Assembly (NCBI GenBank): GCA_026984055.1
Contig: JALSSX010000281.1
Coordinates: forward strand, 1 to 32,705
Direction: 5' to 3'
Origin: Sedimenticola sp.
GTDB taxonomy: Bacteria > Pseudomonadota > Gammaproteobacteria > Chromatiales > Chromatiaceae
Length of the DNA stretch: 32,705 nucleotides
Shown: piece after piece, positions 4,087 through 29,697 of the stretch
Position numbering within the stretch: position 1 is the first letter of the stretch
How the letters are laid out: each line of letters opens with the position of its first letter
The notes under the pieces: generated by a model
Seen by the model: only the letters and a program-made list of their open reading frames with translations
Databases searched by the model: none
What the model was told of the DNA's origin: nothing
Program-made: the position numbers and the translations under genes

Positions 4087-5343
4087 TTATTTCAGTAGTA
4101 TTGAGGTATTCAGGCGGGATTTTATTTCGGTAAGGATTTTCTGATAGGCGTCACTCTCTGTGTTGGTAAAACGCCGCGAGAAAGCATTCGCCGACAAACG
4201 TTCCGGAAGGTCTTCGATACGTGGCAGCAAATCGCCGTCGAGAATACCCCTGGCAATGATTTTCTGTATCTCGGTTGCGGAGTTCCTGGTAATCGTGGCG
4301 CGTTCTCCAAAACGCGTACCGGCCATGTCGGCGGCCAAGTCGGTGAAACTGAATCCACTGCCACGCCAACTGTCGCGAATTTCCTTGTACAGACCGATGG
4401 CGTTTGCCAAGCTGGTATCGCTGCCGACGGTGATGCCAGCCGAGATCAGAAAATGTTGTGCCAGATCGCGGCGGCCGCGCAGCACCGGATAGATTTTCAG
4501 CGGTTGTGGTTTGCTGCTGTGCCCATGAACCAGCGCGGACATGCCATGACCACCGACCCAGGCGGCGAGGATAGCCAGCAGGGCTCGGTTTTCGCCTATC
4601 GGGTCACGGTCGCGCGAACGCTGCCGGGCCGCCTTGAACAGAGGGGGCAGCAGTTTGTACAGCGATACCTTGGTGAATGCGCGGAATTGCCGACTGGTTC
4701 GCGCCAGTGCCTGGTAGTAGAAATCCAGGCTGTGTTGATCCAGGGCGCCGAGCAGGCTGACGCGCATCGTGTCCAGGCTGTCCTGGCTCCAATGGTAGAG
4801 GGCATAAAGGCGGTCGTCGAAGAATTTGACGCGCCGCACCATATTGAGGATGGGTCCCACGCGGCTGTCTTTCGACAACAGATGGCGCGCCAGACAGGAC
4901 AGAGGTGGTAAGACGGCCTCTGGCAGCCTCAATGAACCGATCTTTAGCTCGATGATGCGCGGATAGGGATTGGCATCGGAGATCGCCAGTTGCAGGTTGA
5001 TCCAACGGTGTGGTAACAGTTTGGGTAGTTTTAGGCTCAGGCGCGCGGCCATCTTTCCTCGTGTCAAGTGGAGATCGGTCGAGCCCCTGCCGGTGCGTTT
5101 CAGAAGATAGTTCAGCGCGACATTCAAGTCATGCTGGCTGAGCAGCAGATGGCGGGTAAGGCTGTTGTGCCTGCGTCGCGGGTCATGCTGGCGGAGGAGA
5201 GCCTCGGCATGCGCGATGTCGGTGGGGGATAGCTCGTACTGGGTGCCGGGCAAGGGTGTCGCGCTGGTGGCCAGCATAAGCAACCCGATGGCGGCGATGA
5301 AGGCAACGACCAGCAGCCAGAAGAGAAACCGCAGTGTTCGCAT
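4087..5343 (-). CDS. Conserved hypothetical membrane-anchored protein
   Basis: 418-aa ORF with an N-terminal hydrophobic segment (MRTLRFLFWLLVVAFIAAIGLLML); no family recognised with certainty. Confidence 0.75.
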   Translation of the reverse strand: MRTLRFLFWLLVVAFIAAIGLLMLATSATPLPGTQYELSPTDIAHAEALLRQHDPRRRHNSLTRHLLLSQHDLNVALNYLLKRTGRGSTDLHLTRGKMAARLSLKLPKLLPHRWINLQLAISDANPYPRIIELKIGSLRLPEAVLPPLSCLARHLLSKDSRVGPILNMVRRVKFFDDRLYALYHWSQDSLDTMRVSLLGALDQHSLDFYYQALARTSRQFRAFTKVSLYKLLPPLFKAARQRSRDRDPIGENRALLAILAAWVGGHGMSALVHGHSSKPQPLKIYPVLRGRRDLAQHFLISAGITVGSDTSLANAIGLYKEIRDSWRGSGFSFTDLAADMAGTRFGERATITRNSATEIQKIIARGILDGDLLPRIEDLPERLSANAFSRRFTNTESDAYQKILTEIKSRLNTSILLK

Positions 5344-6280: not shown

Positions 6281-7058
6281 ACTGATGCGCCATGTGCGCG
6301 AACACGGTACGCGCAAGCAGGATCGTACCGGCACCGGTACGCTCAGTGTGTTCGGCTATCAGATGCGCTTCGATCTGCAACAGGGCTTTCCGCTGTTGAC
6401 GACGAAGAAATTGCATCTGCGCTCTATCATCCACGAACTGCTGTGGTTTCTGCGCGGCGATACCAATATCGCTTATCTGCGCGACAACGGGGTGCGCATC
6501 TGGGATGCATGGGCCGATGAAAACGGTGATCTTGGGCCAGTATACGGCTACCAGTGGCGATCCTGGCCTGCCCCGGATGGACGGCATATCGATCAGATCG
6601 CACGCTTGCTGGAGCGGATCCGAACAACGCCGGATTCACGGCGCTTGATCGTGTCGGCATGGAACCCTGCGCTGGTGGACGATATGGCGCTGCCGCCTTG
6701 CCACGCACTTTTTCAATTCTACGTCGCCGATGGGCGTCTCTCGTGCCAGCTCTATCAGCGCAGCGCGGACATTTTTCTGGGCGTGCCATTCAATATTGCC
6801 TCGTATGCGTTGTTGACGCTGATGATCGCTCAGGTCACCGGCTATCAAGCAGGTGAATTCATCCATTCCCTCGGTGATGCGCACCTGTACCTGAACCATC
6901 TGGAGCAGGTGGATCTACAATTGTCGCGCGAACCACTGGTGTTGCCGCGCATGCGGTTGGATCCGACGGTCGACGACCTGTTCGCTTTCCGCTTCGATAG
7001 CTTCGAATTGCTCGATTACCAGACGCATCCACATATCAAGGCGGAGGTCGCGGTATAG
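6264..7058 (+). CDS. thyA: Thymidylate synthase
   Basis: [53 protein letters not shown]. Overlaps the lgt end by 17 bp. Confidence 0.98.
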
Positions 7059-7108
7059 GCGGCTTGCAGGTAACCGATCACGTACTTTCGCGTTAACAGG
7101 CTCTAACA

Positions 7109-7148
7109 GGCCGTTGAAAAAGTCCTTTCATGGACTTTTTCAACGGCC
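7109..7148. repeat. Perfect 17-bp palindrome (GGCCGTTGAAAAAGTCC-tttcat-GGACTTTTTCAACGGCC); terminator/dispersed repeat candidate
   Basis: Inverted repeat read directly. A related palindrome lies at 29707-29749. Confidence 0.85.
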
Positions 7149-7212
7149 AGCTAAAGACTTTTCAGCGCGTGCCGCTTGGAATCTGGACCCGTTACCAGAT
7201 TCAGGGAGTATC

Positions 7213-8550
7213 GTGAGCGTACCCGAACAAGCCATGACGTCGCTTTCCGGCGAGGAACGCAGCGAATTGGAGATGCTGCGTGCCCAGGTCGAGGAATTGT
7301 CGCGTTCAGGCCATCAGTTGATTTCCACCCAGACGCAGATGCAGTCCTTGTTGCACAATGCCTCGGATGCGATCATCGAATTCGAGCCGGATGGCACGGT
7401 GAAGTCGTTCAACAGCGCGGCAGAGGCTGTCTTTCATTGCGCCGAGATCGAGCTGCTGTTCCAGAAAATCGACCATCTGATCCCTTGTCCGAAACATTTC
7501 GATGGTGACGTGCCCGCTTATCTGCTGTGGTATCGCGATAATGTCCAGGATCAGTATGAGCAACCTCTGAAGGGTCGGACCCGTGATGGCGAGGATCTGT
7601 TGCTGGCGGTGTCGGTGGGCATCATCGAATCGAACGACCTGTTGTTGTTCGACGACAGCTTCGATGAAGCGAATGCCGGTGGCGACGATGCGCCGACTTT
7701 CGAGGCTTTCCTCTGCATCCTGCGCGATCTCACCGAGCGCAAGCGCATCGACGCCGAGCTGGAGCGCCATCGCAACGAGTTGGAGGCGCTGGTGCGGGAG
7801 CAGCTTGTCGAGATCGTCGCGGCCAAGGAGGCGGCGGAGCAAGCCAATCGCGCGAAATCCGAGTTCCTGGCGAATATGTCGCATGAGCTACGTACGCCGA
7901 TGCACGCCATCCTGAGTTTTGCCGACTTCGGCATCAAGAAGATCGACAGGGCCAGGCCGGAGAAACTGCAACAGTATTTCAGTCGCATCCATACCGCCGG
8001 CGAGCGCCTGCTCGGCATGATCAACGATCTGTTGGATCTTGCCAAGTCTGAGGCGGGTAGCCTGAGCTACAATATGGCCGAGCACGATCTACGCGAGGTC
8101 ATCGCGGTGGTCAGCGACGAGATGTCCAGCTTGGTCGAGACGAAGGGTTTGTTCCTGGATGTCGATATTCAGGCCGACGACACCCGGCTGGAGATGGATC
8201 GCGAACGCATCGGCCAGGTATTGCGCAATCTGCTGTCGAATGCGATCAAGTTCACGCCTGAAGGTAAGCGCATCCGCTTGCGCATCACGACGGATGCCGA
8301 TGTGATATCGATCGAATGCGCTGATCAGGGCATTGGAATTCCGGAGGATGAACTCGACGCGGTATTCGATAAGTTTGTGCAGAGCAGCCGCACCCAGAAT
8401 GGTACCGGCGGTACCGGCCTGGGCTTGCCGATCTGCAAGGAGATCGTCGAGGCTCACGCTGGCGCGATTCGTGCGGCGAGCAACGCGGATGGCGGCGCTT
8501 CCTTCCATGTCGATCTGCCTAAAGTCCCCGCCGGGCAGGCCGATGGCTGA
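7213..8550 (+). CDS. PAS domain-containing sensor histidine kinase
   Basis: GTG at 7213 with upstream AGGGAG. H-box NMSHELRTPMHAILSFADF, N-box NLLSNAIKFTPEGKRI, G-box DQGIGIPEDE / GTGLGLPICKEIV. The ORF call from 7114 begins inside the palindrome and is probably too long. Confidence 0.9.
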   Translation: MSVPEQAMTSLSGEERSELEMLRAQVEELSRSGHQLISTQTQMQSLLHNASDAIIEFEPDGTVKSFNSAAEAVFHCAEIELLFQKIDHLIPCPKHFDGDVPAYLLWYRDNVQDQYEQPLKGRTRDGEDLLLAVSVGIIESNDLLLFDDSFDEANAGGDDAPTFEAFLCILRDLTERKRIDAELERHRNELEALVREQLVEIVAAKEAAEQANRAKSEFLANMSHELRTPMHAILSFADFGIKKIDRARPEKLQQYFSRIHTAGERLLGMINDLLDLAKSEAGSLSYNMAEHDLREVIAVVSDEMSSLVETKGLFLDVDIQADDTRLEMDRERIGQVLRNLLSNAIKFTPEGKRIRLRITTDADVISIECADQGIGIPEDELDAVFDKFVQSSRTQNGTGGTGLGLPICKEIVEAHAGAIRAASNADGGASFHVDLPKVPAGQADG

Positions 8551-8581
8551 TTCCGTGAGCCTAGCAACCGGAGGGACCGCC

Positions 8582-9496
8582 GTGTCCGATATCACTATCC
8601 TGCTCGTCGACGATGAGCCCTTCAATCTGGAGATCCTTGAGGAATATCTGGAGGATGGCGGCTATACCCTGGATACCGCCGACGATGGCGCCGAAGCATG
8701 GGAAAAGCTGGAGGCCGACCCTGGTGGCTACGATATCGTCATCCTCGATCGCATGATGCCGCGCATGGATGGGCTGGAGGTGCTGAGGCGCATGAAGGCG
8801 CACAACGAACTCGATACCGTGCCCGTGATCCTGCAAACCGCGATGGCCGCGCAAGACGAGATCAACGCCGGCCTGGCGGCTGGCGCCTTCTATTACCTGA
8901 CCAAGCCGTTCGACGAGGAAATGCTACGAAACGTCGTGGCGACAGCGGTCGAGGACCGGCGCCGCTATCGTCAGATGCAGGAATCCATCGATGCGGCGTC
9001 ACGTCTGTTCGGCATGATGCGCCGCGCCAGCTTCCAGATTCGCACGGTGGAAGAGAGTCGCGACCTGGCCACCATGCTGGCGAATGCCTGCCCTGACCCG
9101 AATCGCTCCGTGGTCGGCTTACTGGAGCTTCTGTTGAATGCTGTCGAGCACGGTAACCTGGGTATCACCTATGAGGAGAAATCGGTGCTGCGTGAGCAGG
9201 GTACCTGGGAAGAAGAGATCGAGCGACGCCTGCGCATGCCGGGCTACGCGGAGCGCTGGGTCGATGTCGGCTTCACGCGCGACGACAGCGCGGTGGAGAT
9301 CCATATCAAGGATCAGGGCGAGGGATTCGAGTGGGAGAAATACCTGGATTTCGACCCGGAACGCGCTTTCGACAGCCATGGTCGCGGCATCGCGATGTCA
9401 CGCATGATGAGCTTCGACGAGCTGGCTTATCGCGGCCGGGGGAATGAGGTGGTCGTCAAGGTCTATCTCGGTCAGGCGCGCCGCGAAGCGGCCTGA
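8582..9496 (+). CDS. Response regulator with C-terminal HATPase_c (RsbW-like) domain
   Basis: GTG at 8582 preceded by GGAGGG. Receiver: ILLVDDEPFNLEILEEYL...VILDRMMPRMDGLEVL...YYLTKPFDEEML. C-terminus: LLELLLNAVEHGNLG...VEIHIKDQGEGFEW...GRGIAMSRMMSFDEL. ATG at 8543 is an alternative start. Confidence 0.9.
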   Translation: MSDITILLVDDEPFNLEILEEYLEDGGYTLDTADDGAEAWEKLEADPGGYDIVILDRMMPRMDGLEVLRRMKAHNELDTVPVILQTAMAAQDEINAGLAAGAFYYLTKPFDEEMLRNVVATAVEDRRRYRQMQESIDAASRLFGMMRRASFQIRTVEESRDLATMLANACPDPNRSVVGLLELLLNAVEHGNLGITYEEKSVLREQGTWEEEIERRLRMPGYAERWVDVGFTRDDSAVEIHIKDQGEGFEWEKYLDFDPERAFDSHGRGIAMSRMMSFDELAYRGRGNEVVVKVYLGQARREAA

Positions 9497-9509
9497 ACGT
9501 CGGATCCGG

Positions 9510-11225
9510 TCAGGATTCGGCGAGCTTGCCGAGCAGGAAGTCCACCGCGCTGTCCCGGGCGATCAGGCTGGCTGTCTCGTCGGTGCGTCCCTTGTATTCG
9601 AACTCACCGGCGTCCAGCGAGCGCTCGCCGATGACGATGCGGTGCGGGATGCCGATCAACTCCATATCCGCGAACATGAAGCCGGGGCGTACCGGCCGGT
9701 CGTCGAGTAGCACATCGATGCCAGCCGCCTGCAATTCCGCATGCAGCGACTCCGCCGCCTCGCGCACACGCGGCGATTTATCCATCTTCATTGGGCAGAT
9801 CGCGACCTCGAACGGGGCGATGGCCGCTGGCCAGACGATGCCGCGATCGTCGTGGTGTTGCTCGATCGCCGCGCCGACGACGCGCGACACGCCAATGCCG
9901 TAGCAGCCCATGATCATGGTTTGGCTCTTGCCGTTCTCGTCCAGCACCTCCGCTTGCAGCGCTTTCGCGTATTTGTCGCCGAGCTGGAAGATGTGCCCGA
10001 CCTCGATGCCGCGCGCAATGGTCAGACTGCCTATTCCATCCGGGCTGGGGTCGCCTTCCTGGACGTTGCGCAGATCGGCCGCGCGGGGCACGGGCAGGTC
10101 GCGTTCCCAGTTCACCCCAGTCAGATGTTTGCCATCCTGGTTGGCGCCGCAGGTGAAATCGACGACCGCCAGCGCGGCGTGGTCGGCAATGATCGGTATC
10201 TCCAGCCCTACCGGGCCGATGGAGCCGGCATGCGCGCCACAGACTGACGGAATCTCGTCATCACCGGCCAGCGTCAACGGCGCGGCGACGCCGTCGAGCT
10301 TGGCGGCCTTCACTTCGTTCAGCGCATGATCGCCACGCAGCACCAGCGCGATCAAGCTGCCTTCCTCCTCGCCGGCGACGATCAGGGTCTTGAGCGTTTG
10401 GCTCGCTGGTAATTTCAGGAAAGTGCTGATCTCCTCGATGCTGTGTTTTCCCGGGGTGTCGACCACCTGCATCGGCTGTCTCGGTTCGGCCCGCGCCGTC
10501 GCTGGCGGAACGGCCTCGGCCATCTCGACGTTCGCGGCATAGTCGCTATTGGTAGAGAAGGCGATGGCGTCCTCGCCGGCGGCGGCGAGGACATGGAATT
10601 CATGCGAGGCATTGCCACCGATGCTGCCGGTATCAGCCTGTACCGCGCGGAATGCAAGCCCGCAGCGGCTGAAGATGCGGCAGTAGGTTTGATACATCTG
10701 CTCGTAGGTCTGTTGCAGCGAAGTCTGATCCAGGTGGAAGGAATAGGCGTCTTTCATGAGGAATTCGCGCGCGCGCATGACGCCGAAGCGTGGCCGGATC
10801 TCATCGCGGAACTTGGTCTGGATCTGGTAGAAATTGATCGGCAGTTGCTTGTAGCTGCGCAGTTCGTTGCGCGCCAGGTCGGTGATGATCTCCTCGTGCG
10901 TCGGGCCGAGGCAGAATTCGCGCTGGTGGCGATCGCGAAAACGCAGTAATTCCGGGCCATATTGCTCCCAGCGGCCCGATTCCTGCCAAAGTTCGGCCGG
11001 TTGCACCACCGGCATCAGCGTCTCCAGCGCGCCGGCGGCGTTCATCTCTTCACGCACGATCCGTTCGACCTTGCGCAGTACGCGCAGGCCCACCGGTAGC
11101 CAGGTGTACAGGCCAGAGGCCAGCTTGCGCACCAGGCCGGCGCGTAGCATCAGTTGGTGACTGGCGATCTCGGCGTCCGCCGGGGTTTCCTTCAGGGTCT
11201 GGATATGGAAGTTGCTGGTGCGCAT
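9510..11225 (-). CDS. proS: Prolyl-tRNA synthetase
   Basis: [62 protein letters not shown]...[49 protein letters not shown]. Confidence 0.98.
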
Positions 11226-11429
11226 GCTGGTGGTTCCCGGTCTTGGAATAAAACGCGAATATCTATGGCCAAAGTCAGCCGAACGTCGGCATAAAGTGTG
11301 TGCGCCATTCCTGGCAAGGCGCGAGGAGGCCATGGGGTGCTTTCCACAACGAGCGATACCGCCAGGGACGAAAAGGAGCGCGCAATACTTCCGAGGTTTG
11401 GCTGACCGTGGCGATATCTTACCAAAGCC

Positions 11430-12224
11430 GTGTCGAATCAGACAGGCGATCGTAAAGCCCGCCGGGTATCAGCCGCTGACTGGGGTGTGAACAGTCAAGC
11501 CGCCAGGGGACTTCCATGTCGCTTATTCAAATGCTTTATCCAATGCTGTGCGAACTCATGCAAGCGTGGTTGCCGGCGCCTGCGCTCGGGGCTTGCCGGC
11601 CTGCTGCTGAGCACCTTGCCGCTGCCGGCCTTGTCCGGGTCTCCGGGGCTGCCGGCGAGTCTGTTTAGCTGGGTTCAAAATGCCTATGGCGCCGAGGCCC
11701 GGGATCGGGTCGAGGCGTGGTCCCGATTGCTTGCGCGCGCAGCCAGTCTGCCGGAACGGCGTCAGCTCGAAGCGGTCAACGATTTTTTCAATCGGGTGCC
11801 ATATCTTTCCGACAGCCAGACCTGGGGGCGCGAGGACTACTGGGCGACGCCGGTCGAGATGCTCGCCGAGGATGCCGCCGATTGCGAGGACTACGCGATC
11901 GCAAAATACTATACCCTGCGCCAGTTGGGGGTTGCCGAGGACAAGCTGCGCATCGCTTACGTCAAGGCGTTGAATCTGGATCAGGCGCATATGGTGCTGA
12001 CCTATTATCCGACGCCGGAAGCGGTACCCTTGGTGTTGGATAATCTCCAGAGGCGCATCGAACGCGCTACCGAGCGTACCGATCTGAAACCGGTATACAG
12101 CTTCAATGGCGATGGGTTGTGGTTGGCGGTGAGTCGCGCCGAGGGCCGGCGGGTAGGCGACGCCACGCGCATCAAACTATGGCAGAATCTATTGACTAAG
12201 CTGGGCCTGGAGATGGCCCGCTGA
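11430..12224 (+). CDS. lapG: LapG-like transglutaminase-like cysteine periplasmic protease (BTLCP family); exact start uncertain
   Basis: [37 protein letters not shown]...AHMVLTYY: Cys-His-Asp motif of BTLCP. Directly upstream of a LapD-like gene. Confidence 0.88.
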
Positions 12225-17928: not shown

Positions 17929-20160
17929 TTGAGTACATTGCCCGAATCTCCCCCATCGGTCGTTCCTCCTCGCTTGCTTGGCGGTGTCGCCGAAAGCCTC
18001 GATATCCGTCGCTATATTCGAATACTCCGACAGTATAAATGGAGCATCCTCGGTATCGCGCTGTTGCTGGCCGCGTTGGCCGCGCTGATCTCGTTCTGGA
18101 TGACGCCCAGCTATCGGGCGCAGGTCGATCTGTTGGCTGATCCGTCTCAAACCGGCGTCGCCGATGATTCGAAGCGCGTCAGTAGCGCAATGGTCTGGCT
18201 GTTCTACGAGACGCAGAAAGACATCCTCGACAGTCGGCGTGTCGCGCTTTCGGTCGTGGACAGGTTGCACTTGGTCGAGCGTTACCAGCAAGAGCAGCGG
18301 AAGAAAAGCGCGCGTTCCTTCGATCTGTTGAAGCAGTGGTTCGATATCGACTGGAGGCTGTGGATGCCCGAGACCTGGCGCGACAAGCTCGAGCAGGGGG
18401 GGGGGCGGGTCGAACCGCGATTGATGCTTGCCGATCGCCTGCGCAAGGCGCTGCGCATCGAAACGCGGAAGAACAGCCAGATCATTTCGGTCATTTATCC
18501 GAACAAGGATTCGGCATTGGCGGCTGATGTCGCGAACGCGGTTGCCGATGCCTATATCGAATTCGGTTTGGCATCACGCTTGGAGACAGTTGCTCAGCAA
18601 AGTGCTTGGTTGAATGAACAACTGGCTGGATTGAAACAGAAGCTACGTGAATCTGAATTGGCCCTGCAAAAATTTCAGCAGGAACAGGGTTTGATTGGCT
18701 CGAAAAATCAGGAGGATCTGATATCCACTGAGTTGAGCAGTCTGTCGGTGGAGCTGGTCCGGGCTCAGGCTAAACGGGGCGAGGCAGAAGTGCGCTATCG
18801 TCAAGTACAGAAGATCAAGAAGCAGGGTGGCGACTACAATACGCTGGCCAGCGTGCTGCACAGCCCGCTGATCACTCGCTTGAAGGACAAGCAATCGGAG
18901 CTGTATCGCAAGGTTTCGGAGCTATCCAGTCGCTACGGGAAGAAGCACCCGAAGATGATTGCGGCGAAATCGGATCTGAAGGAGGCCACGCGCGTGTTGA
19001 ACAATGCGATCAACAAGGTCGTTGGGGGCTTGAGGCAGGAATACGAGATCGCCCGGGCCAAGGAACGGCGTATTCGCGGCTTGATGTCCGCGAGGAAACG
19101 CGCGATCCGTAATCTGAAGGGCAAGGGCTTCGAACTCGGTCAGTACGAACGCGAGGTCGAGAACAATCGCCTGGTCTATGAGAGCTTTCTCTCCAAATTC
19201 AAGGAGATGGACGTTACCGGTAACTATGATGGCTCGAATATCAAGATCGTCGATCGAGCCATCGCGCCAAGCAAGCCGTATAGCCCGAAGCGCATGCAGA
19301 TCACGCTCGGCGCCTTTATCGTCGGTTTATTGCTCGGCACCATCATCGTGTTTCTGCGTGATCGTCTCGATAGTCGTTTTACCTTGCTCGAACAGGTGGA
19401 GAGCAACCTGAACCTGCCGGGACTGGGTGTTGTTCCCAGTGTTCGCATGCGTCGCAAGGATCCCGACGTGGCGGTTTGGTACCGGGCAAACGCGGGGTCG
19501 CCCTTTGCCGAGGCGATCAATCACATCCGTACCGGCATTTTGTTTTCTGATATCGATTCACCTCCGAAAGCCATCATGGTGACCTCGGCGCTGCCTGGAG
19601 AAGGTAAGACGACGTTGGCAAACAATCTGGCGCTGGCTTTCGCCCAGCTGGGTCGCACGGTGTTGCTCGAATGTGATCTTCGGCGTCCCCGCGCCCGGGA
19701 TATCTATGAACTGGATAGTGATTCAGGGTTGACGGACTTGGTGCAGGATCCCGGGCTGAGGGATGTCTGTATCCATAAACCCTTCGAGGATCAGGATTTC
19801 TATGTGCTCCCCGCCGGAGAAAAGGTTCCGAATCCCCTGGAGTTGTTGTCTTCCGATACCTTTTCCCGGGTGTTGCGGGAACTCCGAGAGGAATATGAGC
19901 ATGTCATCCTCGACGCGCCGCCGGTGCTGCCTGTCAGTGATGGGGTCGTGCTGGGCCACCGGGCCGATGGCGTCGTGGTCGCGATTCGCTCGCGGGATAC
20001 GACGGAAAAGGCCGCCCGGGATGCACTGCGTCGGTTGCGAGCCGCGCGTATCGAGCCGTTGGGCGCGGTGCTCACCCAGGCGCATGCAAAGAAGATGGCC
20101 TATTATGGCAGCCAGTATTACGCCGATTACTCTTACTATGGTGATAAGGCTTATCGTTGA
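17929..20160 (+). CDS. Wzz-domain polysaccharide chain-length / BY-kinase (Wzc/EpsF-EpsG-like tyrosine kinase)
   Basis: Two TM segments, long coiled coil, Walker A SALPGEGKTTLANNLALAFAQLG, ECDLRRPR, Tyr-rich tail YYGSQYYADYSYYGDKAYR. Start TTG 17929. Confidence 0.93.
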   Translation: MSTLPESPPSVVPPRLLGGVAESLDIRRYIRILRQYKWSILGIALLLAALAALISFWMTPSYRAQVDLLADPSQTGVADDSKRVSSAMVWLFYETQKDILDSRRVALSVVDRLHLVERYQQEQRKKSARSFDLLKQWFDIDWRLWMPETWRDKLEQGGGRVEPRLMLADRLRKALRIETRKNSQIISVIYPNKDSALAADVANAVADAYIEFGLASRLETVAQQSAWLNEQLAGLKQKLRESELALQKFQQEQGLIGSKNQEDLISTELSSLSVELVRAQAKRGEAEVRYRQVQKIKKQGGDYNTLASVLHSPLITRLKDKQSELYRKVSELSSRYGKKHPKMIAAKSDLKEATRVLNNAINKVVGGLRQEYEIARAKERRIRGLMSARKRAIRNLKGKGFELGQYEREVENNRLVYESFLSKFKEMDVTGNYDGSNIKIVDRAIAPSKPYSPKRMQITLGAFIVGLLLGTIIVFLRDRLDSRFTLLEQVESNLNLPGLGVVPSVRMRRKDPDVAVWYRANAGSPFAEAINHIRTGILFSDIDSPPKAIMVTSALPGEGKTTLANNLALAFAQLGRTVLLECDLRRPRARDIYELDSDSGLTDLVQDPGLRDVCIHKPFEDQDFYVLPAGEKVPNPLELLSSDTFSRVLRELREEYEHVILDAPPVLPVSDGVVLGHRADGVVVAIRSRDTTEKAARDALRRLRAARIEPLGAVLTQAHAKKMAYYGSQYYADYSYYGDKAYR

Positions 20161-20621
20161 CGGGCGTTATGTATGGGGAGAGCGGCTGTGTGAAAGGGTG
20201 GTTCGGCAAGTCTCGGCTCTGTTTGATCGTCGTTTGGCTGCTGCTTCGTTTGCAATGGCGACGGCACGAGACCTTGCCACGTTTACTCGATCGAGTCGTG
20301 TTATGGCGAGGCATTCCGGTATGTGTCGGTACCGCCGAGGCGGTGGATGCGGTAGCCTGCGTATTTCATCATGCCCGGCGGATTCCCGGTCTGTGGGTGA
20401 GTTGTATTCCGCGCGGAGTGGTTCTCGCGGCGTTACTCAGAGATAGCCCGGGCACCTGCCTGAAAATTGGCTTTTCCCCGATAACCGGGCATCGACAAGG
20501 CCATGCTTGGTTGAGTCGCGAAGGCGAGCCGTTGATGCCCGAAGACAGCGAGCTGTTGGCTAGGCATCGCTACGCCGCGGTTACATCCTTGCCATTACGG
20601 CTTCACCGGAGAATACATTGA
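20157..20621 (+). CDS. Lasso peptide biosynthesis B2-like transglutaminase-family protease
   Basis: C-terminal motif SCIPRGVVLAALLRDSPGTCLKIGFSP...GHAWLSREGEPL matches the Cys-His arrangement of B2 proteins (Transglut_core3). TTG start overlaps the BY-kinase stop (TTGA); ATG at 20169 is an alternative. Confidence 0.82.
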   Translation: MTGVMYGESGCVKGWFGKSRLCLIVVWLLLRLQWRRHETLPRLLDRVVLWRGIPVCVGTAEAVDAVACVFHHARRIPGLWVSCIPRGVVLAALLRDSPGTCLKIGFSPITGHRQGHAWLSREGEPLMPEDSELLARHRYAAVTSLPLRLHRRIH

Positions 20622-20902
20622 ACGATATTCCCGCGACGCTATTCGGCTTTTCCCGGCGTCTTCGAGACGGTGATCTGTGCCTTACCGAGCTGGGTGACGG
20701 TAGTGGTGTGATATTGGATTTGGACGGTCATCAGGTATTGACCTTGAACGGTAGTGGCGTTGTGCTCGTCGATGCGATTGCCGCCGGGACGCTGGCGATC
20801 GACGACTTGGCGAAGATACTTCGCGAACGCTTCGATGTGGAGGAAATGGTTGCGGAGCGCGATGTACAGGCGTTTCTGGAGGAGCTGGGTGGCTATGTGT
20901 AG
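20618..20902 (+). CDS. PqqD-family protein (lasso B1/RRE-like precursor-recognition protein)
   Basis: LRDGDLCLTELGDGSGVILDLDGHQVLTLNGSGVVLVDAIAAGTLAIDDLAKILRERFDVEEMVAERDVQAFLEEL is PqqD-like. TTG start overlaps the B2 stop (TTGA), with GGAG 6 nt upstream. Confidence 0.85.
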   Translation: MNDIPATLFGFSRRLRDGDLCLTELGDGSGVILDLDGHQVLTLNGSGVVLVDAIAAGTLAIDDLAKILRERFDVEEMVAERDVQAFLEELGGYV

Positions 20903-25610: not shown

Positions 25611-26600
25611 ATCCTGACCCTGAGTCTTGCGGATGTCGATCTGCGGGTCGATGTCGACGGCTTGTCGCTAGCCGCCTTGGAGGCGCGCTACGCGTTTCTG
25701 CGGCCACGCGTCCATGCGGCGTCACCCAAGGAATCATGGCCCTGCATCCATGTGCGACCGTCGTTGCCGATAGAGCTACGGGATGCCCTGAAGGTGCTTC
25801 GATGCAATGACGAAATCCCGTGTGCGCGGGGAGGAGATAGGCGAGTTTATTTTCCTGATGGCTGTCACGTCTATGATGTCTCGAAAACCACGTCCGAAGT
25901 GATGCAGCCTCATTCTGAGGCGGGGGCGGCCGTGAACGCCGCCATCGTGCGCGCGTTCGCGCTGTGTGGAGGAATCATCGTGCATGGCCTGGCTTTCGAG
26001 CATGGCGACAAGGGCTATTTGGCGCTGGGAGACAGCGGTTCGGGGAAGTCCACCCTGGCGACCGCGATCCTACTTGCCGGTGGCCGGATCGTCAGTGACG
26101 ATCTGGTGCTGTTGGGAAGAGCGTCCGATGGCGGGGTTCGGGTATTACCCTTTCGTGCCGACATGGTGTTGCGCGATCCGAGCTATCGGCGATTTCGCGC
26201 GAGATTGGAACTGAACGGCATGGAGTTGGATGAGTTGCGCGTGAATGGCGAACGAAAGTGGAGAATCTCGCGAGATCGGCATCCGGAGTGTTTTGTCCGA
26301 GCGGTATCGGTTGCCGCTGTTTTGTGCCTTGCTTCTCCCGACGGGGAAGGCAATTGCGTGCTCAGCCTCATTACTCAGGCCGAGGGTTACGCGGCGATCG
26401 CACGGGACAACTATTTCTTCAACAGCCCTCATCCTTTGGAGCAACGCGCGATGAGCCAGACTCTCGGCGCTTTGCTGACCACGGTTCCGGTGCTGAAGGT
26501 CGCATCCTCCAGGCGATTGTTCTTGAGGCCGGTCGAGGAGGTCGATGGCTTGCTTCGGCGCATTGAAAAACATGCGTGTCAGCATCATTTACATCTGTGA
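25611..26600 (+). CDS. HPr kinase/HprK-related serine kinase-like protein (lasso/RiPP locus kinase candidate); start uncertain
   Basis: P-loop YLALGDSGSGKSTLATAILLAGGRIVSDDLVLL. Frame open from 25593. GGGAGG (25600-25605) precedes ATC 25611/CTG 25614; the tool start is TTG 25662. Confidence 0.82.
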   Translation: MLTLSLADVDLRVDVDGLSLAALEARYAFLRPRVHAASPKESWPCIHVRPSLPIELRDALKVLRCNDEIPCARGGDRRVYFPDGCHVYDVSKTTSEVMQPHSEAGAAVNAAIVRAFALCGGIIVHGLAFEHGDKGYLALGDSGSGKSTLATAILLAGGRIVSDDLVLLGRASDGGVRVLPFRADMVLRDPSYRRFRARLELNGMELDELRVNGERKWRISRDRHPECFVRAVSVAAVLCLASPDGEGNCVLSLITQAEGYAAIARDNYFFNSPHPLEQRAMSQTLGALLTTVPVLKVASSRRLFLRPVEEVDGLLRRIEKHACQHHLHL

Positions 26601-26716: not shown

Positions 26717-26831
26717 AGTGCCGGCCTGCCCCAGAGCATCAATGGTAAAAACTATTAAATTCAATTTCTTACTGGTGATGGCATGAAATATGTATATCAG
26801 TAATGACACTGTTTTTCTGGGCATTACCTCC

Positions 26832-27518
26832 ATGAATTTTTTAAAAATTATCGTTATCGGCGCCTTGCTTGGCGCCTCTTCGGTCCACGCCGCACTGATT
26901 GACAACGGGGCGCCGGATGCCCAAAGCGGCGTCACGATTGCGAATGCGAAGACCGGCGCGGACGATTTCGTGCTGTCACGCCTAGAGAACACCTTGCTGG
27001 GTGGAAGCTTCTGGACTTTGGAATCAGATCCGACGAGCTGGGATGGAACTCTGGAGATACGCTTTTATGACGATGCCGGCGGAAACCCGGGTAATGGTAC
27101 TCCTACTCCGGTGCAAACGGTGATGCTGCACTCGGCGGATATCAGCCGCACGCAGACTGCGGCGGGTATTTCCCTGGGACTGTTTACCGGTCTGGTCGAA
27201 TATCGGAATGTTTTCACCTTTACGACACCGGTGGACTTGATCGGCGGCCACTACTGGATGGCGTTGTATATGCAGGGTGACCTGAACAACAACAATCCGG
27301 AGATATTCTGGGAGACCACCGGTTCTCAACATTATTTTGCTGCTGCGCAGTCCAGCCGCGCGGTGCCCCCGTTGGCGTGGAACAATGTATACCACCCTTC
27401 GGGTCCCACCGATCTGGCTTTCACCTTGAGTTTCGATATTCCGGAGCCGGTGCCTGCTGTATTGATGTTGGCGGGTGTGGCGGCTATGATGGCTGGAAGA
27501 AGGAAAAAGGCTGCGTAA
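26832..27518 (+). CDS. PEP-CTERM sorting domain-containing protein
   Basis: Signal peptide MNFLKIIVIGALLGASSVHA; C-terminus FDIPEPVPAVLMLAGVAAMMAGRRKKAA (PEP, TM helix, basic tail). ATG 26832 preferred over 26790. Confidence 0.9.
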   Translation: MNFLKIIVIGALLGASSVHAALIDNGAPDAQSGVTIANAKTGADDFVLSRLENTLLGGSFWTLESDPTSWDGTLEIRFYDDAGGNPGNGTPTPVQTVMLHSADISRTQTAAGISLGLFTGLVEYRNVFTFTTPVDLIGGHYWMALYMQGDLNNNNPEIFWETTGSQHYFAAAQSSRAVPPLAWNNVYHPSGPTDLAFTLSFDIPEPVPAVLMLAGVAAMMAGRRKKAA

Positions 27519-27583: not shown

Positions 27584-27748
27584 ATGATGAAGCAAGAGAT
27601 GCGCACTATCAGTGAGACGAGCCGCCAGGACGAGAAGCGCCTATATGAACCACCGAGCGTCGAACGTCAGCGTTTGGACGCAGTGGTCAAGGCGGGTGGT
27701 AATGGCTCCGTCGACAGCCCTTTTGGTACAAAGAATGAAATTCCCTGA
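27584..27748 (+). CDS. Putative lasso-type RiPP precursor peptide (54 aa)
   Basis: MMKQEMRTISETSRQDEKRLYEPPSVERQRLDAVVKA|GGNGSVDSPFGTKNEIP. YxxP leader motif, Gly at the expected core position, Asp at core position 7; close to kinase and cyclase genes. Confidence 0.72.
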   Translation: MMKQEMRTISETSRQDEKRLYEPPSVERQRLDAVVKAGGNGSVDSPFGTKNEIP

Positions 27749-27771
27749 TGGATCGTCTCGTTCGAAACGTG

Positions 27772-27803
27772 AAAAGGCTCCTCCTTGTTGAGGGGCCTTT
27801 TTT
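27772..27803. terminator. Rho-independent terminator between convergent precursor and cyclase genes
   Basis: AAAAGGCTCCTC-cttgtt-GAGGGGCCTTTTTT hairpin with U-tract (A-tract on the opposite strand, so possibly bidirectional). Confidence 0.8.
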
Positions 27804-27870
27804 CATGCGTCGGGAATACTCTATCTGGTAAGGTGCTTATCATGAGGGGAGGATGAACGAGGCGTGCGAT

Positions 27871-29697
27871 TCATCCCGATTCGCCGCGTAAGGCCTCCAG
27901 GAATATCTCGGTTGTGACGAGATTGGACAGTTCGGCTGGGAGTTGTGAGCCAAGGGGTCGCGTCAGCTGAGTCGTCAGCCAGGAGGGGTTTACGATGCCG
28001 ATTTCGCTCAGAAGCCAGTACCGCGCGGCGGGGACCATCCCTAGCAGTCCGGTATCGTTTACCCCGGGGATATTGAAGTTGGGTTTGCTCGGGTAAGAAA
28101 GCACAGCCTCCGGCAGTCGATTCCGCATGGCTCGGCGTAGCAGGGCCTTGGGTTCGTTATCGGGGTAGACGAGCAAGTCGGGTGGGGTGCGAAAGCCGAA
28201 TTCGATCAGACTACGATGCATCAGTGGATGACGGATATCCAGTTGGTGCCCGGCCGCGAACTGTTGATTGGGCGCCATGCCATAGGTAGCGAACCAATTC
28301 AGTGCGCTGAGTAGACGACTGCGTCGAACCCCATTTTCCAGGCACGACTGTTCCTTCAATGCGAGCATGTCACGATACAGCTCATGCCAAGCAGGGTGTA
28401 GCCATGCGGGCGGCCTGCGGAGCTGGTTGTAGAGGCGTCGCGGCCACGAACCTTCCCGGGCCAGCGTCAGTTTGAAGGCGCGGCGCAGATTCGCGCCTGG
28501 GTTGCGTCGGCGGGTCCATTGGTTTCCTTTCCAGGCGGCCATGAGTGCCTCGATTCGCCTGCCGGAGCTCCAAGCATCTCCGAGATGGAACTGGCTGGGT
28601 TCGAACCATTCATCACCGCCGATGCCCAGCAGCAAGGTTCCGCGGCCCTGTTCGTGGACGAAGCGATAGAAGGGTTCGTAATAGTAAGCGTTTGGGGCCA
28701 CGATATAATCCAGTCTTTCGGTGAGCGCCTGGATAAAGTCCGTATTGCGAAAAGTCGAGACATCCAGTTTCTTGACCGTTACCCCATGGAAGCCTTCATG
28801 CAGGTGGATGATCCGGCTTTCGTCACAGGTCTGTCCGGGAAAAATCTGACTGAAGGCGCTTGTGCTCGCGGCTCGCTGATCGCCCCGTGCGGCCAGATGG
28901 CGGATCGTGCCCCACAGACTGCCCGAGTCGAGACCGCCACTTAGGCTCAGGCCGGTATTCTCATCGGGAATCGCATGCTCTACCGCGTGGTCGAGCAGCA
29001 TGCGTAGTTCAGCGGCGCGTTCGGCTTGGTTTCGTTGGGAAGGGACGACTGTCTCGGTGTCTGGCGGTTGCCACAATGGCTGGACTACGGCCTGCTTCTT
29101 GCCGGGCGAGAAGCGATACAGTCGTCCGGGTAGGATGCGAGAAATACCCTGGTAATAGGTCTTACCCGGTTGTGACAAGGTTTGGTTGAACAACAGATAC
29201 TCGACCAGGGCGCCGTGATCGATGCTTGGAGTTTCGTCGTTCAGGAGATGAAGCTGGCGGATATCGGTCGCGATGACCAGGTTGGCGTGACCGTGACGGT
29301 AATGCAGCGCGCGGATGCCGTCGATCGAAGTGTAGACACTCGTTACGCCATCGGCGGCGCAGATGATGGTCGAGAACTCTCCATCCAACTGAGCCAGGGA
29401 TTCGGTGGGGACGCGAGACAGGAAGCGGCCCAGGCGTTCGGCGTCCGATTTGCCCTGGATGCTCGGGTCGATGTCGCGCCAGTTCGCGATATAGCCGTCG
29501 ACGGCGATAAGTCGCCCGCCCTGGCGGCAAAGACTGGTCTCGCCAGCCAAGTGTTGAATCGCCAGTACCCGCCTGTCGATTCGATGACTGAGCGTTTTGC
29601 CACGAAACGGCGTGGCCGCGCCCAGGCGTCGAATCTGTGCGCTCATCTTGGGAGAGGGAGCGTCGCTGGGGTAAGCGATAAAGGTAAGTGAACTCAC
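27871..29697 (-). CDS. Asparagine synthetase-like protein, probable lasso peptide cyclase (C protein)
   Basis: GTG start; degenerate N-terminal glutaminase-like domain without MCG; ATP-pyrophosphatase motif TGLSLSGGLDSGSLWG; AsnB-like C-terminal half (PLMHRSLIEFGFRTPPDLL...KALLRRAMRNRLPEAVL). Confidence 0.82.
   Translation of the reverse strand: MSSLTFIAYPSDAPSPKMSAQIRRLGAATPFRGKTLSHRIDRRVLAIQHLAGETSLCRQGGRLIAVDGYIANWRDIDPSIQGKSDAERLGRFLSRVPTESLAQLDGEFSTIICAADGVTSVYTSIDGIRALHYRHGHANLVIATDIRQLHLLNDETPSIDHGALVEYLLFNQTLSQPGKTYYQGISRILPGRLYRFSPGKKQAVVQPLWQPPDTETVVPSQRNQAERAAELRMLLDHAVEHAIPDENTGLSLSGGLDSGSLWGTIRHLAARGDQRAASTSAFSQIFPGQTCDESRIIHLHEGFHGVTVKKLDVSTFRNTDFIQALTERLDYIVAPNAYYYEPFYRFVHEQGRGTLLLGIGGDEWFEPSQFHLGDAWSSGRRIEALMAAWKGNQWTRRRNPGANLRRAFKLTLAREGSWPRRLYNQLRRPPAWLHPAWHELYRDMLALKEQSCLENGVRRSRLLSALNWFATYGMAPNQQFAAGHQLDIRHPLMHRSLIEFGFRTPPDLLVYPDNEPKALLRRAMRNRLPEAVLSYPSKPNFNIPGVNDTGLLGMVPAARYWLLSEIGIVNPSWLTTQLTRPLGSQLPAELSNLVTTEIFLEALRGESG

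Follow-up and report, generated by a model that had tools for sequence, protein, structure and literature searches.

The open reading frame at 27584-27748 on the forward strand raises the question of whether so short a frame is a gene and, if so, which peptide is released from its product and how that peptide is modified. The frame, here called A, encodes 54 residues (MMKQEMRTISETSRQDEKRLYEPPSVERQRLDAVVKAGGNGSVDSPFGTKNEIP*) and lies in a window of 32,705 nucleotides, by which we mean the whole stretch of DNA that was analysed. Judged from sequence comparison, the locus probably encodes a kinase-bearing lasso peptide pathway of the group with Ile or Val at leader position -2, with an Ala1-Asp8 ring, phosphorylation of Ser6 and a secreted protein, for which we coined the name E, at the cell surface.

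A is a genuine conserved gene and not a chance frame. Homologues are found in two relatives from the genus of the window, with 83% identity in G084 (E 1e-23) and 61% identity in G043 (E 1e-14). Between the window and G084, the changed codons among codons 1-27 comprise nine non-synonymous and three synonymous ones, compared to none and 12 among codons 28-54 (Fisher p = 3e-4). This split implies that the entire core and the final part of the leader are selected as protein, under strong purifying selection, while the early leader drifts. Translation may start at 27584 or 27587, the latter being possible because G043 has a single Met at that place. Downstream, an intrinsic terminator at 27772-27803 (+) separates A from the convergent gene C; the region 27766-27812 folds with -22.3 kcal/mol (z -4.8), and the same stem-loop lies 3' of A in G084. 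A promoter scan gave a result on par with chance, and A had no family match in Pfam or NCBIfam even at E 10. In G043 both A and E are present twice, at two contig ends (L033 and L034; G043:C238 and C233), with a single base difference between the A copies, which is probably an assembly overlap and possibly a duplication.

Further members were found by profile searches, after which the loci were read for frame and neighbours; weak matches (E 0.01-1, family and class searches) were taken as chance unless both fitted. Homologues of A occur in 11 genomes, a count that leaves out loci L039-L056 and weak loci beyond G208, whose neighbours were unread. They represent three genera of one family (G000, G084 and G043 from the genus of the window; G088 and G051 from g51; G185, G190, G178, G127 and G081 from g39) and one genome of another family, G208. 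C, K and B1 accompany A in every one of the 11 genomes, C and K lying on separate contigs in some of them, and B2 is nearby in 10, the sole B2-family match of G208 being on another contig. The association of A homologues with C, K and B1 supports the lasso-type precursor proposed in the sequence-only reading. In G088, G185, G190, G127 and G081 the genes lie on one strand in the order C-A-K-E-B2-B1, with C of G185 cut by the contig end. The block is split in the genus of the window, where A, E and K are inverted relative to C, and B2-B1 stand beside a Wzc gene beyond xth. As B2-B1 have the same position in G084 and G043, an assembly error in a single genome is ruled out. The cyclases of different genera are only about 24-28% identical, so the linkage of the cassette must be old. 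The genome of the window also carries a second lasso-like cluster (L100, G000:C306:1-18000, at about 6902-11507) with an ABC transporter and a 79-residue ORF alongside; there B1 matches PF05402 with E 4e-17, B2 matches PF13471 with E 1e-15 and the cyclase matches NF033535 with E 8e-74.

B1, B2, K, C and A all lie within the one window. The putative leader peptidase B2 (20157-20621, +) is transglutaminase-like and matches NF033537 (lasso_biosyn_B2) with E 8e-6 and 26.2 bits, under the curated cut-off of 33, and PF13471 with E 6e-5. That cut-off is passed by B2 of G088, G190 and G127, and the Cys of SCIPR and the His of GHAW are aligned in 9/9 B2 proteins compared, BsfB2 included. B1 (20618-20902, +), a PqqD-like RiPP recognition element, is over the cut-off of PF05402 (E 1e-12) and under that of the lasso PqqD family NF033530 (E 5e-8), and shares 49-56% identity with its counterparts in G088 and G185. 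Neither gene, nor that for E, appeared in the sequence-only reading. B2 shares 4 bases with B1 and, at its start, overlaps the stop of the Wzc-like gene that precedes it; the pair lies 4.8 kb away from K, with rmuC, mtaB and xth between. The arrangement at 17929-20902, a Wzc/XrtA-type polysaccharide gene followed by B2-B1 with overlapping stop and start, recurs in G084 and G043 (L098, L099), and in these three the lasso peptidase pair is apparently joined to an exopolysaccharide operon.

K (25662-26600, +) is HPr-kinase-like and presumed to be the precursor kinase. It matches TIGR04352 with E 4e-7, far under the cut-off, and its His, its Walker motif GDSGSGKST and its Asp-Asp pair (SDD) align with the residues named for BsfK. 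The phosphorylated mass given earlier implies such a gene, and its presence in the window supports the possible phosphorylation raised there. The AsnB-like neighbour mentioned with it is real: C (27871-29697, -), the putative lasso cyclase, matches PF00733 with E 2e-27, as well as the lasso cyclase family NF033535 (E 1.5e-21) and the asparagine synthase family TIGR01536 (E 1e-25), the last two under cut-off. C lacks an N-terminal Cys and has the ATP-binding motif SGGLDS. The glutamine amidotransferase Cys2 is missing in 7/7 C proteins compared, which start MGxx or SSLT, and the PP-loop is kept in 6/7. In the window, B2, C and K thus all score under NCBIfam cut-offs; phmmer searches of the PDB with K, C and B1 gave remote or generic matches only. 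No exporter or transporter gene was seen in the window. The low family scores, the distance between B2-B1 and K and the missing exporter gene count against the proposed pathway.

The residues used earlier to describe the leader are all present in the translation: numbering from Tyr as 0, Pro at 3, Val at 5, Arg at +9, Lys at +15 and Gly at +17. Conservation of the YxxP leader had been named as decisive for the precursor, and 11/11 homologues retain Tyr (codon 27644-27646), Pro and Leu(+10). The core start at +17, in contrast, is probably wrong, as position -2 would then be K, R, Y, H, A or L, with no pattern. We consider it likely that the core is AGGNGSVDSPFGTKNEIP (27692-27745), starting with Ala1 one residue earlier, after a predicted leader ending in LDAVVK (27584-27691). 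This placement is favoured because position -2 becomes Val or Ile in 11/11 members (Tyr+14; Val codon 27686-27688 in the window) and because BsfA fits gap-free at its own cleavage site. BsfA is cut after Ile(-2)-Arg(-1), as LAAIIR/GTSGNEVD, according to mass spectrometry; its predicted acceptor is Asp8, and lasso peptidases rely on leader position -2 (Duan et al., PMC10368454). That stretch aligns without gaps with LDAVVK/AGGNGSVD of A. When a profile built from nine family members was scored against BsfA, the best ungapped match, LAAIIRGTSGNEVD against LDAVVKAGGNGSVD, fell exactly at the experimental cleavage site with a score of 21.2, compared to a mean of 2.6 (sd 3.7) for shuffled BsfA, and 0/5000 shuffles were as good. 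A canonical relative in G142, ...LDIMSVLTK/GGGNIQGGDNPFVNGS, has Thr-Lys at the site of Val-Lys in the window. The description of the leader as non-canonical holds, Thr being absent at -2, where Val or Ile stands in 11/11 (Lys, Arg and others under the other boundary), but leaders of this Ile/Val(-2) kind had already been described.

The new boundary also alters the ring and the masses. The Asp or Glu within core positions 7-9 is Asp8 (27713-27715), or Asp7 with a Gly start, so that the 7-residue G1-D7 ring proposed earlier is probably wrong and the Ala1 start gives an 8-residue Ala1-Asp8 ring. The choice of Asp as acceptor is supported, the aligned Asp being kept in nine close homologues and offset by one in G127. 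Aligning GGNG with GGAG of microcin J25 had displaced the core by one. The masses quoted for the GGNGSVD... core are arithmetically correct (1656.774 Da cyclised, [M+H]+ 1657.782, phosphorylated 1737.748). Under the Ala1 start, the masses to look for move to the calculated [M+H]+ of 1728.82 for cyclised AGGNGSVDSPFGTKNEIP and 1808.79 with one phosphate.

Two features speak against Ala1: the spacing from Tyr to the cut is 16, compared to 17 in BsfA and canonical leaders, and three members would have an unusual residue 1 (Met in G190, Phe in G178, Val in G127). The same pathway acting on the core GGNGSVDSPFGTKNEIP, with a 7-residue Gly1-Asp7 ring, would restore the canonical distance of 17 and give Gly as residue 1 in 7/11 members and Ser in two (G127, G081). 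Yet Gly or Ala is residue 1 in 8/11 under the Ala1 start, and with such similar counts residue 1 decides neither. A Gly start would leave K, K, R, R, R, Y, R, H, A, R and L at position -2, place Ile in G208 and Gln in G051 at residue 1, and put the cut one residue after the point at which both BsfA and the canonical G142 relative align. We therefore regard the Gly start as unlikely, and the rule of counting 17 residues from Tyr, by which all conservation at -2 is lost, as the less likely guide to the core.

Within the Ala1 core, the candidate for phosphorylation is Ser6 (27707-27709). BsfK phosphorylates Ser3 in the ring of BsfA, aided by BsfB1 (PMC10368454); core position 3 is Gly in the window, a point against the proposed pathway. 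Our best guess is that phosphorylation occurs within the ring, since every predicted ring has a Ser (at position 2 or 4-6) and the tails of G051 and G185 are free of Ser and Thr. Phosphorylation of a C-terminal Ser was rejected, as the core of the window ends in Pro; the C-terminal residues of the 11 cores are P, P, P, L, Q, A, G, M, I, T and S, with Ser only in G127.

From these genes, their conservation, the identity of their motifs and their association, all directly observed, we infer the following chemical steps. The YxxPxV leader would be bound by B1 and the precursor handed to K and B2. K would phosphorylate Ser6 in the future ring, and B2 would cleave after Val(-2)-Lys(-1). C would then use ATP to activate Asp8 and couple this residue to the Ala1 amino group; the resulting peptide would have 18 residues, eight of them in the ring, and would probably be threaded. 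Bulky residues that could serve as a plug are scarce in tails such as SPFGTKNEIP, where Phe11 is the only large one, and HprK/RRE RiPP clusters that lack a lasso cyclase occur in Bacillota (PMC13381572); both points would suit a product of the same enzymes that is a branched-cyclic unthreaded peptide or a linear phosphopeptide. We consider such a product quite improbable, since C, with its homology to lasso cyclases, is present in 11/11 genomes and the acceptor Asp is conserved in most. That C is instead an amidotransferase of an XrtA/PEP-CTERM polysaccharide system, with A unrelated or no precursor, is very improbable and was rejected: the genome has exosortase genes as well as a Wzc gene of the EPS type, and TIGR03108 (XrtA amidotransferase) matches C with E 9e-14, but this match reaches 51 of 817 bits, far under cut-off, and the match to the lasso cyclase family is stronger, C has no Cys2, and A co-occurs with C, K and B1 in 11 genomes.

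If the Ala1 boundary is right, the cassette would belong with the kinase-bearing Ile/Val(-2) lasso peptides of the bsf type. The bsf cluster of Bradymonas sediminis (BsfA, BsfK, BsfB1, BsfB2; PMC10368454) has the same split B1/B2, an HPr-kinase-like K with the same motif, a YxxPx(L/V) leader, Ile/Val(-2) followed by a basic residue, an Asp8 acceptor and no C-terminal Ser. The window differs in that Tyr is one residue closer to the cut, the ring Ser is at position 6 rather than 3, the cassette includes a PEP-CTERM-like protein, the host is a Sedimenticola-like gammaproteobacterium, and no transporter or nucleotidyltransferase gene is seen within it. Ser position, leader spacing and a recurring surface protein thus set the cassette apart from that group, and the PEP-CTERM-like partner is new here. 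Near the G208 cassette, a 410-residue ORF (L072:4174-5406) without an NCBIfam match looks nucleotidyltransferase-like by eye (cf. BsfN in bsf). Kinase-bearing Ile/Val(-2) lasso peptides have so far come from Bradymonadales, Acidobacteriaceae and Sphingomonadales (PMC10368454); the present cassettes would extend them to a Sedimenticola-like gammaproteobacterial group and offer 11 natural variants for testing the rules of leader cleavage and ring phosphorylation.

The paeninodin type (PadeK, SyanK, ThcoK) shares the gene content A, B1, B2, C and K, but has Thr(-2) and a phosphorylated C-terminal Ser where the window has Val(-2) and a C-terminal Pro. The G142 locus (LTK/GGGNIQGGDNPFVNGS) resembles this type; its canonical-looking kinase-type precursor, MAKEAEPHTKPREDVSANRRVRKEYAPPRLQTLDIMSVLTKGGGNIQGGDNPFVNGS, lies at L112:9066-9239, with a K-like match 2.2 kb off. 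In microcin J25, the leader ends with Leu-Thr-Lys before GGAGHVPE, which is comparable to VVK/AGGNGSVD of the window, and the ring likewise has eight residues. Unlike the window, microcin J25 has a Glu8 acceptor, a fused B protein, no kinase and a dedicated exporter.

E (26790-27518, +, possibly translated from Met-15 at 26832) combines a signal-like N-terminus with a PEP-CTERM-like tail, IPEPVPAVLMLAGVAAMMAGRRKKAA, as in the PEP-CTERM/exosortase sorting system. Its match to TIGR02595 is borderline (18.2 bits in the genome scan and 13.9 in the protein scan, with a cut-off of 16), and that to PF07589 is under cut-off. A secreted protein with such a tail is found in the cassette in 11/11 genomes. 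Ten of the ectodomains are mutually homologous, while that of G088, with the same kind of tail, has no detectable similarity to the other ten. The genomes have 5-22 PEP-CTERM matches each; chance adjacency of E to the cassette is conceivable in any single case, but unlikely. In a search of 194 genomes of the family, the E profile matched at E 1e-5 in 9/10 cassette genomes compared to 12/184 others, with a Fisher p of 3e-9 that is biased, as the profile was drawn from most of the cassette genomes and the genomes are related to one another. The fair part of this comparison is formed by the five strong matches, at E 1e-20 or better, that came from outside the profile: two, in G127 and G081, lie in new A cassettes, and near the other three, in G143, G036 and G193 (L106, L107, L108), no match to C, K, B1 or B2 was seen. 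E is therefore a constant companion of the cassette here, although members of its family also occur outside it. All nine genomes searched have exosortase genes, and E would be secreted and likely anchored at the surface by the exosortase of the genome, where it may hold the peptide, receive it or be protected from it. Its role may thus be that of an anchor, receptor, target or immunity protein. An AlphaFold2 model of E from two sequences had a mean pLDDT of 42. An incomplete literature search found no link between a lasso cluster and a PEP-CTERM protein. We tentatively suggest, as a possibility that is less likely than not, that the lasso pathway and exosortase-sorted E form a unit in which E anchors, receives or is the target of the peptide, the peptide acting at the surface or polysaccharide matrix of its producer and not as a diffusible antibiotic. 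A recurring surface-protein partner offers a testable clue to the purpose of such silent clusters.

Two further ORFs were noted in passing. One, of 418 residues, lies at 4087-5343 (-) of the window and has no Pfam match. The other, of 60 residues, contains YSKPSTLSREPLEAMAVVCSGP and directly follows a gene that looks radical SAM-like by eye (L061/L074, G571:C74:7556); it is possibly an unrelated RiPP precursor with a YxxP-like leader.
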